DNA from: Patescibacteria group bacterium
GTDB lineage: Bacteria > Patescibacteriota > Patescibacteriia > SG8-24
NCBI GenBank assembly: GCA_018813785.1
Contig: JAHJAU010000041.1
Coordinates: 1 to 35,500 of the forward strand
Reading direction: 5' to 3'
DNA length: 35,500 nt
Made by a program: the position numbers and the translations under genes. How positions within the stretch are numbered: position 1 is the first letter of the stretch; every line of letters begins with the position of its first letter. This document shows, piece after piece, positions 9,762 to 20,450 of this stretch. The notes below the pieces were generated by a model. That model was not told the DNA's origin and did no database searches. It was given only the letters and a program-made list of their open reading frames with translations.

Positions 9762-9807
9762 AAAAAGTGTCAGACAGTTTTAAGGTAAAAATTGTTTGAC
9801 GCTTTTT
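9762..9807. terminator. Long near-perfect inverted repeat / terminator downstream of hpf
   Basis: AAAAAGTGTCAGACAGTTTT aaggt AAAAATTGTTTGACGCTTTTT. Confidence 0.8.
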
Positions 9808-9902
9808 CATTAGATAAGTCTGAAAAGTTGGTCATTGAGTGGACTATCATTCCGTACGCGTGTATAAATAGGTATATTACTTCCAGAATTAACGCACTTC
9901 AC

Positions 9903-12680
9903 ATGTCTCTTTTTTATAAGATTTTCGGCGATCCGAACGAGAAGGTTTTGACTGAAATGCAACCGATCGTCGAAGATATCAACAATTTAGAAAAAGAAAT
10001 CGAACAGCTGGGTCCAGAAGCACTTCGTGACCGGTCACTTGATTTGAAAGCTCGGGTAACTGCCGGTACAGCGCTCGATGTGATTTTACCGGAGGCATTT
10101 GCGTTGTGTCGCGAGGCAGCCAAGCGCACGCTTCATCAGCGACATTATGATGTTCAGCTGTTGGGTGGTTTGGCTTTGCATCGCGGACAAATCGCGGAAA
10201 TGCGTACTGGTGAGGGTAAGACTTTGACCGCTACCTTGGCGGTTTATCTGAATGCGTTGACCGGCAAGGGAGTACACGTAATCACCGTTAATGATTACCT
10301 GTCCCGTCGTGACGCCTCCTGGATGGGGCAGGTTTATAATGCTTTGGGTTTGTCAGTGGCGTGTATTAATCACATGTCTGCTTTTCGTTACGATTCGGAT
10401 TGGCAGGCACCAACTGAAATTGAAGAGGTATCTCTGGCCAATTTAGCTGAAGCAGCTGAAAAAGAAGAAGGTGGTGTAGTGGATCAAAAACGTGATCGTA
10501 TCGGTTCGTTTAAGGTAGAGATGGATTACTTGAAGCCCTGCGAGCGTCAGGAAGCGTATCAGGCAGATATTACTTATGGCACTAATAATGAATTCGGTTT
10601 TGATTACCTGCGCGACAACATGGCCATGCGGCCAGAACACAAGGTTCAGCGTCCGCATCATTACGCTATCGTGGACGAAGTGGACTCAATTTTGATTGAT
10701 GAGGCGCGTACGCCGCTCATTATTTCTGCAGCAGCCGAGGAAGCGGCTGATATTTACTACAAATTTGCGACGTTGATTAAGCCGATGAAAGAGAACGTGG
10801 ATTTCAATAAAGATGAAAAGATGAAATCCTCCAGCTTTACAGAAGAAGGTCAGAATCGAATCGCTAAATTACTCGGTTACGATCCGTGGTCTGAAAATGA
10901 TACCAGTACAATTTTTCATCTGGAGGCAGCTCTGCGAGCCGACAAGATGTACGAGAAGGATAAAGATTATGTAGTCAAAGATGATGAAGTGATTATCGTG
11001 GATGAGTTTACTGGACGATTGATGCAAGGGCGACGTTATAGCGAAGGTTTACACCAGGCGATTGAAGCCAAAGAAGGTGTGGCTATTCAGCGTGAAAGTC
11101 GGACGTTGGCCACTATCACTTTTCAGAATTATTTTCGCATGTATGAAAAGTTGGCCGGCATGACCGGTACCGCGGCCACTGAAGCTGAGGAATTCGCCAA
11201 AATTTACAATCTGGACGTAACGGTTATTCCGACTAATCGATCCAATGCTCGGGTGGATTTATCGGATCGAATTTATAAAAGTGAGCAGGCGAAGTTTATT
11301 GCGGTGGTGAAAGAAATTCGTGAGCGACATGAAAGAGGTCAGCCGGTATTGGTCGGCACCGCCTCCATTGAGAAGAATGAGATTTTGGGCGAATTGTTGA
11401 CCAGGGAAGGTATTCCGCACGAATTATTGAATGCCAAAAACCATGAACGTGAGGCGCAGATTATTGCGCAAGCTGGTCGGTTTGGGGCGGTGACCGTGGC
11501 CACTAACATGGCTGGCCGCGGTGTCGACATTATCCTGGGTGGTAATCCAGCCAACGCAGTCGATGCCCAAAAAGTCAAAGAGCTTGGTGGTTTATTTGTT
11601 CTGGGTACAGAACGACACGAATCACGACGCATAGATAATCAGCTGCGCGGTCGATCTGGTCGTCAGGGTGATCCGGGCGTCACGCAATTTTTCATCTCTT
11701 TAGAAGATGATTTGTTGCGTATTTTTGCCACGGACAGCATGCGTTCCATGTTGGATCGGCTGGGCCTGCCAGACGATGTGCCAATCGAAAATCGAATGGT
11801 TAATCGTTCGATCGAAAGTGCCCAGAAAAAAGTCGAGGGTCATCACTTTGATATTCGCAAACATCTTTTAGAGTACGATGACGTATTGAATCGACATCGC
11901 GAAGTATTTTATAACAAGCGCGATGAACTTTTGTTTATTGTGCCGGGTGATTCAGTTACAGTCAGAGAGCGGGCGATTGAATGGGTTGAATCAGAAATTG
12001 AACGAGTAGTGCTGTTTCACACAGCAGCCGAAGATGAAAAAGCCTGGGATTTGAAAGAGATTTATGAAGTTATTGCAACTATTTTTCCGGTTTCCGAAGC
12101 TGATCGTGAGCAGTTAACTGACATTCACCAGACAGCCGGTTCTAAAAAAGCCGATGCTGAAGCTCGCACCAAGATTATCGAACATCTAATGACTTTGGTG
12201 AAGCGTGAATACGATGCGCTAGAGGCGCGGGTTGACGCAGTCTTAAAAGAATATGAAAACGTTGGAGCGTTCCCTGATTTGGTTCGCGGAATGATGTTGC
12301 GAGCCATGGATATGTTATGGGTAGAGCATTTGGATGCTATGGATCATATGCGAACTGGTGTAGGGTTGCAGGGTTACGGTCAGCGCGATCCGTTGGTTCA
12401 GTATAAGAAAGAAGCGTTTCGAATGTTTAACGAATTGATGGCCATGGTGGAAAAACAAGTGGTGTATTCATTGTTTAAGATGAGTGTTGCACCGCGTCCG
12501 GATCAGTCACGGAGATACGCCAAATCATTGATGGACTCTCAGGGGGTAAAAATGCAGGGAGCTGGAAAGGTGGCTGGTGAGTCCGGCAATAATGCTGGCG
12601 GTGGTCAGGCTAAGGTGGGTCGTAACGAACCCTGTCCTTGCGGTAGTGGAAAAAAATATAAGAAGTGTTGCGGGGCATAA
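9903..12680 (+). CDS. secA: Protein translocase subunit SecA
   Basis: MRTGEGKTLTATLAVYLNAL, YGTNNEFGFDYLRDNMA, VDEVDSILIDEARTPLIIS, TNMAGRGVDIILGG, SGRQGDPGVTQFFISLEDDL, C-terminal SEC-C RNEPCPCGSGKKYKKCCGA. Start at MSLFYKIFGDPNEK; the ORF-track extension to 9792 lies in the hpf terminator. Confidence 0.97.
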   Translation: MSLFYKIFGDPNEKVLTEMQPIVEDINNLEKEIEQLGPEALRDRSLDLKARVTAGTALDVILPEAFALCREAAKRTLHQRHYDVQLLGGLALHRGQIAEMRTGEGKTLTATLAVYLNALTGKGVHVITVNDYLSRRDASWMGQVYNALGLSVACINHMSAFRYDSDWQAPTEIEEVSLANLAEAAEKEEGGVVDQKRDRIGSFKVEMDYLKPCERQEAYQADITYGTNNEFGFDYLRDNMAMRPEHKVQRPHHYAIVDEVDSILIDEARTPLIISAAAEEAADIYYKFATLIKPMKENVDFNKDEKMKSSSFTEEGQNRIAKLLGYDPWSENDTSTIFHLEAALRADKMYEKDKDYVVKDDEVIIVDEFTGRLMQGRRYSEGLHQAIEAKEGVAIQRESRTLATITFQNYFRMYEKLAGMTGTAATEAEEFAKIYNLDVTVIPTNRSNARVDLSDRIYKSEQAKFIAVVKEIRERHERGQPVLVGTASIEKNEILGELLTREGIPHELLNAKNHEREAQIIAQAGRFGAVTVATNMAGRGVDIILGGNPANAVDAQKVKELGGLFVLGTERHESRRIDNQLRGRSGRQGDPGVTQFFISLEDDLLRIFATDSMRSMLDRLGLPDDVPIENRMVNRSIESAQKKVEGHHFDIRKHLLEYDDVLNRHREVFYNKRDELLFIVPGDSVTVRERAIEWVESEIERVVLFHTAAEDEKAWDLKEIYEVIATIFPVSEADREQLTDIHQTAGSKKADAEARTKIIEHLMTLVKREYDALEARVDAVLKEYENVGAFPDLVRGMMLRAMDMLWVEHLDAMDHMRTGVGLQGYGQRDPLVQYKKEAFRMFNELMAMVEKQVVYSLFKMSVAPRPDQSRRYAKSLMDSQGVKMQGAGKVAGESGNNAGGGQAKVGRNEPCPCGSGKKYKKCCGA

Positions 12681-15801: not shown

Positions 15802-16599
15802 TTAATTAATGATCGGATTTTTTTCTGGCGACAGAAGACAGAGATTGGTTGGGATTTTCGTTTCAGTTACATAGACCGGAAACCCTAATTGCATCAGCTC
15901 ATCAACGCGGGGTTCGAGCAACAGGCAAATTCCATCAGACTGTTGCAGTACAGCCAACGCCTGCTTTCGGTCAATGCCGTAACGGGTTTGACCATAGGTT
16001 GATATTTGAACCAGTTGGTCAGCAGCTTCACGTTTGGCAAATTCTTCAGGTGTCAAAAATTCGTAGAACAACTGATCATTCGGTGAGCGTGGTGCTCGCG
16101 TGGTAACAGTCTTAATGATAGTCATTTGTCCCGGTCCAGCCATAACTTCCATTCGACGTAGTCGATCCATGATTGCGGCCTGACGACCAGAACCGGGTAA
16201 ACCAGTTACCACGTGTAGTTCGTGCATCATTTCTATAACTAGCACAAACTGTGGAACCTGCATGTTGATGATATTGCGAGGTCGAGCGGCTTGTTGTTCG
16301 ACAATCTCGTCGCGCTTCAAAACATCACTTGATCCGATTACCACTACAACTTCACCAGGTTGATCGGTGGTGAAGGTATGAGCTACCGGTCTAGGTAGCC
16401 AGACTATTAGATCAGGCGACATTGCCCGAACATCGATGGCGATTAAGGTATCTTCCGCCGCTTCACCGATCAGGATGATCTGTCGACGTAGTTCAGCTAC
16501 CCGTCGAATCACGCGGGGTTCACGTACCCCAGGTAGACGAATGAGCATCGAAGCGATGCCGTTTTCAATGTCCAATCCGGATAGAGTATCAGCCGTCAT
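15802..16599 (-). CDS. Guanylate-kinase-like domain protein with degenerate P-loop and unknown N-terminal domain
   Basis: VVTGLPGSGRQAAIMDRL...TVTTRAPRSPNDQLFYEFLTPEEFAKREAADQLVQISTYGQTRYGIDRKQALAVLQQSDGICLLLEP resembles the GMK fold (TTRxxR, FF/FY..EEF, YG..R); SD ggaggaataATG. Confidence 0.7.
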   Translation of the reverse strand: MTADTLSGLDIENGIASMLIRLPGVREPRVIRRVAELRRQIILIGEAAEDTLIAIDVRAMSPDLIVWLPRPVAHTFTTDQPGEVVVVIGSSDVLKRDEIVEQQAARPRNIINMQVPQFVLVIEMMHELHVVTGLPGSGRQAAIMDRLRRMEVMAGPGQMTIIKTVTTRAPRSPNDQLFYEFLTPEEFAKREAADQLVQISTYGQTRYGIDRKQALAVLQQSDGICLLLEPRVDELMQLGFPVYVTETKIPTNLCLLSPEKNPIIN

Positions 16600-17390: not shown

Positions 17391-19550
17391 ATGAAAGAAA
17401 ATAATGTTATTCGTGAATCTTTCTCGAAGTTACTCAAGGCGCTGTTTTCCTTGGTGGCGCCGACCACACCGCGAGGCAGAGTGAGACGAGCAATATTTAT
17501 TATTGCCATTCTGTTATTTTTCTCAGGCCTGTTAAGTTATCCCAATTGGTGGAACTCAACAGCCGATAGAGTTAATAGCTGGTCAGAAGAGACGTTGAAC
17601 TTTAATCCGAAGATTCCACATTTTTGGGAAGTGGCTTTTCGCTTGGGCTTAGATCTGCAGGGTGGAACACATTTGGTTTATACAGCAGATATGAGTTCCA
17701 TTCCCTCAGCAGAGCAGGATGATTCAATTGCTGGTGTGCGTGATGTTATCGAGCGTCGGGTCAATGCTTTTGGCGTGTCTGAACCATTAGTTCAAACCAA
17801 TAAATCCGGGGATGAGTGGCGACTCATAGTTGATTTGGCTGGAGTGACTGATATTTCTGAGGCGATTCAACAAATTGGAGAAACACCGATTTTAGAGTTT
17901 AAAGAAAAGAATCTAGAACCGCCACGCGCTTTGACCGAGGAAGAGCGACAGGATATGGAGATGAAAAATTCTACGGCCAAAGTTTTAGCCGGTGATGTAT
18001 TGAAACAGGCTCAGGAGGCGGAGGCTGATTTTGCTGCGCTAGCTGCCGAGCACTCAACTGACATGTCATCAAAAGCTATGAGTGGCGATATTGGATTTCA
18101 GACTACAACCGGCGAATTTCAGATGCTGGTTCAGGCTGTGATAGACAATGATGTTAAAGCTGGGGCACTTGTTCCTAAGATCGTAGAAAGTTACCAAGGT
18201 TATCATATCGTTGGTTTTGAAGGAACGCAGGAGGGAGGCAAGGAAGTACAAGCTTCACATATTTTGCTGTGTTGGCAGGGTGCGTTACGTTGCGAAGCAG
18301 AGCGCACCAAAGAAGAAGCCTTAGCTCTGGCTCAGGAGTTAGTTGCTCAGGCCACGCCAGAAAATTTTGCCGCTCTGGCTGCTGATAATTCTAGCGATGC
18401 ATCAAATGCCGAAACCGGTGGTGATCTGGGCTGGTTTCCGGAGGGGGCGATGGTTGAGACGTTCAATGATGCAGCTATGACCCTGGCCGTCGGTCAGATT
18501 TCCGAGCCAGTCGAGACAGAGTTTGGTTATCATCTGATTTATAAGACCGATGAGCGTTTTCAGTTGGAATATCATCTGCGACATATTCAGTTTACTAAGA
18601 AGGTGGTGACCGATTATGTACCGCCGGCAGATGAATGGAAAAATACACAATTGTCCGGCAAACACCTTAAACGTTCGATGATGCAATTTCATCAACAAAC
18701 CAACGAACCGTTAGTTGGCTTAGAATTTAATGCTGAGGGGAAGGATTTATTTGCAGACATTACTCAGCGCAACATTGGAAAACCTGTAGCTATTTTCCTT
18801 GACGGTCAACCTATTAGTGTACCGACTGTTAATGAGGCTATCACCGGTGGCGAAGCAGTTATTACGGGAGATTTTACGATTCCCGAGGCCAAACTTTTGG
18901 TTCAGCGATTGAATGCTGGTGCGTTGCCAGTGCCAATTAATTTGGAGACTCAGCAATCAGTAGGGGCAACACTCGGCAACTCGTCCTTGCTAGCGTCACT
19001 TAAAGCCGGATTGATTGGTTTTTTGATCGTGGCGTTGTTCATGTTGCTTTACTATCGATTACCGGGATTAGTGGCGATTATTGCTCTGGCCATTTATACA
19101 TCTGTTAACTTAGCTTTGTATAAATTGATTCCAGTTACATTAAGTTTGTCTGGCATTGCCGGTTTCATTTTGTCGGTTGGCATGGCGGTAGATGCGAACA
19201 TTTTGATTTTTGAACGGCTCAAAGAAGAGTTGCGTCGTGGACGATCTTTGCAATCAGCCTTAGAAGAAGGTTTTCGTCGGGCTTGGTTGTCAATTCGCGA
19301 CTCCAACTTAACAACGCTTATTTCCTGTGCGATCTTGTTTTACACCAGTTCATCGTTGATCAGGGGTTTCGCTTTAACCCTGGGTATCGGTGTGTTAGTA
19401 TCCATGTTCTCGGCGATTATCGTAAGTCGCTCCTTATTGCGTTTGTTAACCGGCTGGGGCTTTCTCAAGTCCGAGATGTTATATTTGCCGGGTTTTAGTA
19501 CCAGAGCTAAACCAGCCCAGGCTGGTTTAGACGAGAGAAGTACGAACTAA
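17391..19550 (+). CDS. secD: Protein translocase subunit SecD with inserted parvulin-type PPIase domain(s)
   Basis: [88 protein letters not shown]: SecD. Insert QASHILL...[58 protein letters not shown]: parvulin. Confidence 0.95.
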
Positions 19551-19556
19551 CGGTTG

Positions 19557-20450
19557 ATGAGTATGATATATCCAATCATTAAATATCGAAAAATTTGGTT
19601 CACCTTGTCGAGTTTATTAGTTTTGGTTAGTGTGGCTGCCTTGGTAATATTTCCACTTCGTTTTGGGATTGATTTTACCGGCGGTTCTTTAATGGAGCTG
19701 AGATTCAACGAGCGACCGTTAACACAGGAGATGCGCAATACCATGACTGAATTGAATTATGCTGAAGCGGTGGTGCAGCCACTGGGTGACTTGGGCATGT
19801 TAGTACGTCTTCCTACCATGGGTGAAGAAGAGCATCAATCATTACTAACTTCTTTACGAGAGAAGCATGGCGAAGTAATCGAATTGCGTTTTGAATCCAT
19901 TGGTCCAACAGTTGGTTCGGAAATGCGAAGCAAGGCCGTTTGGTCATTATCATTAGTATTGATAGCGATTGCTTTATACGTAGCTTATGCTTTTCGCAAG
20001 GTTTCGCGGCCAGTGGCATCCTGGAAGTACGGCATTACCACGTTGATTGCTGCTCTCTGTCATGATGTTCTGATTCCTCTGGGGGTGTTTGCTGTGTTAG
20101 GTCACGTCTTGCTAGTGGAAATAAATTCAGCTTTTATTGCCGCCATGCTTACCGTGTTAGGTTTTTCAGTTCATGACACGATCGTGGTGTTTGATCGCGT
20201 TCGTGAAAATTTGATGAAGACCGGTGGTACATTTGAAGAGATCGTAGAGCGCAGCGTCAACGAAACTTTGGCTCGATCCATCAACACCTCACTTACCACC
20301 ATGTTGCCGCTCATCGCTATTTATTTATGGGGAGGGGAAACTTTGAGATGGTTTGCGCTGGCTTTGATGATTGGTTTAATTGCTGGTACCTACTCTTCAA
20401 TCTTTTTGGCCTCACCGTTGTTAGTGGTTTTTCAGAAGAAGTCAAAATAA
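19557..20450 (+). CDS. secF: Protein translocase subunit SecF
   Basis: FGIDFTGGSLMELRF, LGFSVHDTIVVFDRVRENL, ARSINTSLTTMLPLIAIYLWGGETLRWFALALMIGLIAGTYSSIFLASPLL. Confidence 0.96.
   Translation: MSMIYPIIKYRKIWFTLSSLLVLVSVAALVIFPLRFGIDFTGGSLMELRFNERPLTQEMRNTMTELNYAEAVVQPLGDLGMLVRLPTMGEEEHQSLLTSLREKHGEVIELRFESIGPTVGSEMRSKAVWSLSLVLIAIALYVAYAFRKVSRPVASWKYGITTLIAALCHDVLIPLGVFAVLGHVLLVEINSAFIAAMLTVLGFSVHDTIVVFDRVRENLMKTGGTFEEIVERSVNETLARSINTSLTTMLPLIAIYLWGGETLRWFALALMIGLIAGTYSSIFLASPLLVVFQKKSK

Follow-up and report, generated by a model that had tools for sequence, protein, structure and literature searches.

Two nested parvulin domains, the outer one probably circularly permuted, in the SecD export motor of a patescibacterium

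The SecD protein encoded in the 35,500-nucleotide stretch of DNA analysed here (the window), which belongs to a tiny uncultured bacterium, carries two parvulin domains in its extracytoplasmic P1 domain, both situated between the P1 base and the P1 head (Table 1). We hold with good confidence that they form a nested pair at the joint between base and head, comprising an outer parvulin (D1) that is permuted and would act as a stalk, and an inner parvulin (D2) of regular order that would be the active one. On balance, we also lean towards a broader view, according to which Patescibacteria evolved a permuted parvulin that is used in their main extracytoplasmic foldase and was built into the P1 base–head joint of SecD in at least two classes, making folding help a part of the proton-driven export motor.

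Table 1. Features of the SecD gene and its surroundings, in window coordinates.
Feature	Residues	Position	Strand	Basis
SecD ORF, 719 aa, with two nested parvulins in the extracytoplasmic P1 domain		17391..19550	+	Pfam and Foldseek
P1 base, first part	83-173	17637..17909	+	Pfam SecD_1st 116-173; phmmer alignment to 3aqp
D1 body, alpha1 to beta4, ending in QGYHIV (His272)	183-277	17937..18221	+	Rotamase profile
D2, complete regular-order parvulin (His290, Met354, Phe358, His381)	284-388	18240..18554	+	Rotamase profile
beta1 strand of D2		18243..18272	+	Coevolves with D2 body, not D1; within model strand 270-293
Cys294 and Cys301, beta1-alpha1 loop of D2		18270..18293	+	Conservation and coupling
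Relocated beta1 strand of D1 (His398), after D2	394-403	18570..18599	+	Couplings; within model strand 379-402
P1 head	418-514	18642..18932	+	Pfam SecDF_P1_head 5.9e-29
SecF, separate ORF directly downstream of SecD		19554..20450	+	Pfam SecD_SecF_C 1.5e-57

The assignment as SecD is based on the presence of P1 base and head, the SecD/SecF membrane domain, the GG motif and an adjoining secF. In the translation, the Pfam models SecD_1st, SecDF_P1_head, SecD_SecF_C and Sec_GG were all matched, as were, each in two stretches, Rotamase_3 (8.9e-41) and Rotamase (5.3e-35). Foldseek retrieved the SecDF of Thermus thermophilus (5yhf, E=5.2e-23), and the insert begins directly after the first part of the P1 base, where residue 171 aligns with residue 116 of the T. 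thermophilus protein (phmmer, 3aqp). SecF has neither a Rotamase match in Pfam nor a parvulin insert. The same window encodes SecA (9792-12680), about 5 kb upstream of secD, with a DEAD-domain match of 426 residues over 287 profile positions; part of this long span is due to the preprotein-binding domain, and insertions may contribute as well. A 265-aa ORF on the minus strand (15802-16599), the second half of which appears guanylate kinase-like by eye (GLPGSGRQAAIMDRL), had no Pfam match at 1e-4.

The original prediction, that the first extracytoplasmic domain of SecD contains a clear parvulin and a less conserved one, is borne out by two Rotamase matches in a whole-genome search. D2 covers the full profile (positions 1-96; G000:C11:18258-18548, with G000 denoting the window genome; E = 1.3e-23), while D1 is matched at 17955-18218 over profile positions 11-95 (E=1.4e-11). 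The predicted extent of the pair, 17970-18560, was right within a few codons, except that it ends just before a strand (18570-18599) that we assign to D1. Besides the full profile, D2 has a predicted parvulin fold and conserved active-site residues: among 130 double-insert SecDs, His290 and His381 occur in 130/130 each, Phe358 in 129/130 and Met354 in 110/130, and an acidic residue occupies position 336 in 124/130. Cys294 and Cys301, each found in 115 of the 130, with the C..C spacing after the strand kept in 112/130, are coupled (z=6.9) and probably form a disulfide.

D1 had been described as a degraded copy lacking the N-terminal HIL strand. The strand is indeed absent at the N-terminus, since the profile match begins at position 11; it was, however, not simply lost, given that coevolution, structure models and relatives all point to its relocation behind D2. 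Likewise, degradation is true of the family, in which the equivalent of His272 is kept in 12/130 and the strand histidine His398 in 20/130 sequences, yet the window protein retains both, with a pocket position that lacks Phe. These two histidines are kept or lost jointly: 8 sequences have both, 16 have just one and 106 have none (Fisher p of 2.7e-5, uncorrected for relatedness). A full fold in regular strand order is not found in D1, whose first strand follows D2. The D1 body scores 74.6 bits against a profile built from single-insert SecDs, in which the same order, body and then strand, explains why D1 has no HIL strand at its N-terminus; the relocated strand is homologous to their conserved C-terminal ASHILI strand. 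Thus, D1 is quite probably a circularly permuted parvulin, with the body first and the first strand last, a degree of confidence that applies jointly to the whole explanation given here; D2 would then, as the best explanation, occupy the beta4-beta1 loop of D1, which joins the last strand of that domain to the relocated first one.

Direct coupling analysis of the 130 double-insert SecDs (effective number 112) placed the pairs 285-389 (z 14.8), 233-395 (z 7.4), 272-398 (z 7.2), 237-396 (6.9) and 280-393 (6.8) among the strongest couplings; 233-395, 237-396, 272-398 and 196-401 tie the relocated strand to the D1 body. Within the top 100 couplings, the D1 body is linked nine times to the late strand and once to the early one, and the D2 body five times to the early and once to the late strand. 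Permutation tests of the strand ladders, taken alone, gave p values of 0.012-0.074. The late strand coevolves with the body and lies behind it, which would make D1 a circular permutant, with the same fold in rotated chain order. A rotated-profile HMM outperformed the regular one on 29/39 single-insert SecDs (median 2.2 bits), but this test is weak because the gain is modest and a reversed-strand control is not clearly beaten, the rotated profile being better on only 21/39.

AlphaFold2 models of the full SecD (76 sequences; pLDDT 91.7) and of the insert alone (70 sequences; pLDDT 97.0, pTM 0.84) both contain equally long strands of 24 residues at 270-293 and 379-402, the positions of which sum to about 672, as for one antiparallel ribbon. 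These strands, which lead into and out of D2, would pair over their full length, a pairing deduced from strand positions and coevolution rather than from listed model contacts, and D1 and D2 are therefore predicted to share a two-stranded ribbon. The D1 body is modelled at a pLDDT of about 96-98. The parvulin fold is recovered in the insert model, with TMt values of 0.86 to the PPIase domain of PrsA (2jzv) and 0.85 to domain II of SurA (4g2p); its best PDB match is Escherichia coli SurA (5.4e-11), and the nearest solved structures are SecDF (5yhf), SurA (1m5y), PrsA and Pin1. A fold search in viral proteins yielded no significant match.

The parvulin within SecD is not a one-off fusion, as it is near-universal in the window genome's own class and also occurs in a second one. 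In a survey of the insert and its copy number restricted to Patescibacteria, the tally for the window's class covered 133 genomes with a classifiable SecD, including the window: 77 have a single insert of the permuted type, 53 a nested double, one a regular single (L057) and two none (L056, L287); two entries (L306, L316), cut or missed by the anchors, were placed by reading the sequence. Single inserts consist of a domain running from alpha1 to GYHII, followed by a conserved EVrAsHILI strand directly before the P1 head, and this order of body and then HIL strand argues for circular permutation; of 76 singles in the alignment, 72 retain the histidine of the C-terminal HIL strand and 74 that of GYH. 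Double inserts share their start and end with the singles, and D2 is placed behind the last D1 strand and ahead of the relocated one; named relatives with double inserts include Magasanik-, Uhr- and Falkowbacteria. The lone regular-order parvulin in L057 (2009-2608, minus strand) is of the D2 type and looks as though D1 had been deleted along with its relocated strand. An unrooted SecD core tree with a weak backbone implies at least 16 changes of architecture and is compatible either with a single gain of the insert followed by losses or with its transfer between the two classes.

Across a phylum sample of 145 genomes, SecD outside the window's class is mostly 420-510 aa long, and the longer parvulin-less SecDs examined contain linkers, acidic or otherwise, or are extended at their termini. 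In this sample, parvulins at the same place of SecD occur outside the window's class only in the class of G101, where the nested series (L176-L181, L222-L246) are similar or longer. Some SecDs of this class apparently have three parvulins in series, and L244 and L246 seem to hold only degenerate parvulin bodies. Several members contain many in-frame TGA codons, which suggests Gracilibacteria-like bacteria.

Two other readings of the anatomy have to be weighed against the nested pair. The insert could be a decayed tandem duplication, with D2 as the working copy, D1 broken after loss of its first strand, and the strand behind D2 being mere SecD linker. While the late start of the D1 profile match at position 11 and the loss of most D1 active-site residues in the family fit such decay, the strand behind D2 shows coevolution with the D1 body and is absent from SecDs without an insert, the strand and its histidine are kept in 72/76 single-insert SecDs, and the D1 region is modelled at a pLDDT of about 97; hence, we regard this reading as very unlikely. 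Slightly less credible still is a strand-swapped tandem, in which the early strand (285-294) would complete the D1 body and the late strand (394-403) that of D2, giving two permuted units in a row. On paper, its order of body, strand, body and strand is identical, and the two linkers are similar in length, but the top 100 couplings favour the nested pairing by 14 to 2, and His290 is invariant together with His381 of D2, whereas His398 decays together with His272 of D1.

D2 is most likely a putatively working prolyl isomerase or holdase tethered to the SecDF motor; every conserved active-site position is retained in it. D1 is most likely mainly a stalk for D2. As we picture it from sequence and predicted structure, the common ribbon would make D1 and D2 a fairly stiff rod standing on P1, with D1, its active-site residues mostly lost, providing stalk and binding surface. 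D2 would meet chains leaving SecYEG and isomerise or hold them, and its action may be driven or timed by the proton-powered motion of the P1 head. In E. coli, SurA binds the holotranslocon, and AlphaFold models place both of its parvulins on the P1 head of SecDF (PMC9987972); PpiD, another parvulin protein, is located at SecYEG (PMC9643414). The nested anatomy of the window SecD might, as a possible though less likely alternative, accommodate two non-catalytic parvulins, i.e., a holdase or scaffold whose rod captures or guides chains or docks partners, isomerisation being irrelevant. Such a role accords with the largely degenerate D1 and with the situation in PpiD, which acts at the translocon although its domain is described as having the parvulin fold but being catalytically inactive (Weininger 2010, cited in PMC9643414), and also with PrsA, which still supports secretion when its active site is mutated (PMC12445088). 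In view of these two cases, catalysis may be unimportant even where the residues are conserved. Against pure scaffolding, which would not require such conservation, stand the active-site positions of D2, essentially invariant across the 130 double-insert sequences, and the two histidines of the single domains, each retained in >90% of 76.

As to the origin of the permutation, the window genome also encodes a stand-alone SurA_N-parvulin protein, L001 (G000:C4:1064-1438, minus strand). In most of the SurA-like stand-alone foldases of Patescibacteria (L001, L247-L266, L325-L342), the parvulin is permuted, its HIL strand following the body. Using a strand profile trained on SecD singles only, the best strand match lay after the body in 37/43 foldases, before it in 4/43 and nowhere in 2/43, and in 36/43 the strand score exceeded the best of shuffled sequences. 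In 114 permuted sequences, body and C-terminal strand are coupled, with z 3.7 for the His pair and z 6.5 for the hairpin K90-E97. L001 aligns in one stretch to the body of SurA P1 and the HIL strand of SurA P2, in keeping with a permutation that arose through duplication followed by truncation (PMC3320104). The permuted SurA-like foldase itself most plausibly derives from a truncated SurA-type tandem, and a permuted SurA-like foldase of the same phylum is the likely source of the SecD insert.

No report of SecD–parvulin fusions or of permuted parvulins was found in the open-licence literature. The current view is that SurA and PpiD of E. coli take up chains near SecDF/SecYEG as separate proteins. 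Parvulins fused into P1, the domain where SurA is predicted to dock, make the link between motor and foldase testable in one protein, and the natural parvulin permutant, spread through a phylum, provides a clean example of how tandem domains give rise to permutants.

Compared with known systems, the window SecD shares P1 base, P1 head, membrane domain and Sec_GG with T. thermophilus SecDF (phmmer 2.1e-79 to 3aqp) and E. coli SecD; the stretch between P1 base and head, however, comprises about 236 residues with two parvulins (171 to 408), versus about 31 residues in 3aqp (116 to 148). Like the insert, the periplasmic chaperone SurA of E. coli has two parvulins in a row, the second being better conserved, but it is a soluble, separate protein whose parvulins both follow the regular order and each have an HIL strand of their own at the N-terminus. 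PrsA of Gram-positive bacteria is likewise an extracytoplasmic parvulin, yet a lipoprotein separate from SecDF and regular in strand order. PpiD of E. coli resembles the window SecD in that a membrane anchor holds a parvulin at the Sec translocon, and its AlphaFold model, with split domains nested and the parvulin innermost (PMC9643414), recalls the nesting of the insert; unlike the insert, PpiD has its own single-helix anchor outside SecD, and PMC9643414 describes no circularly permuted parvulin for it.
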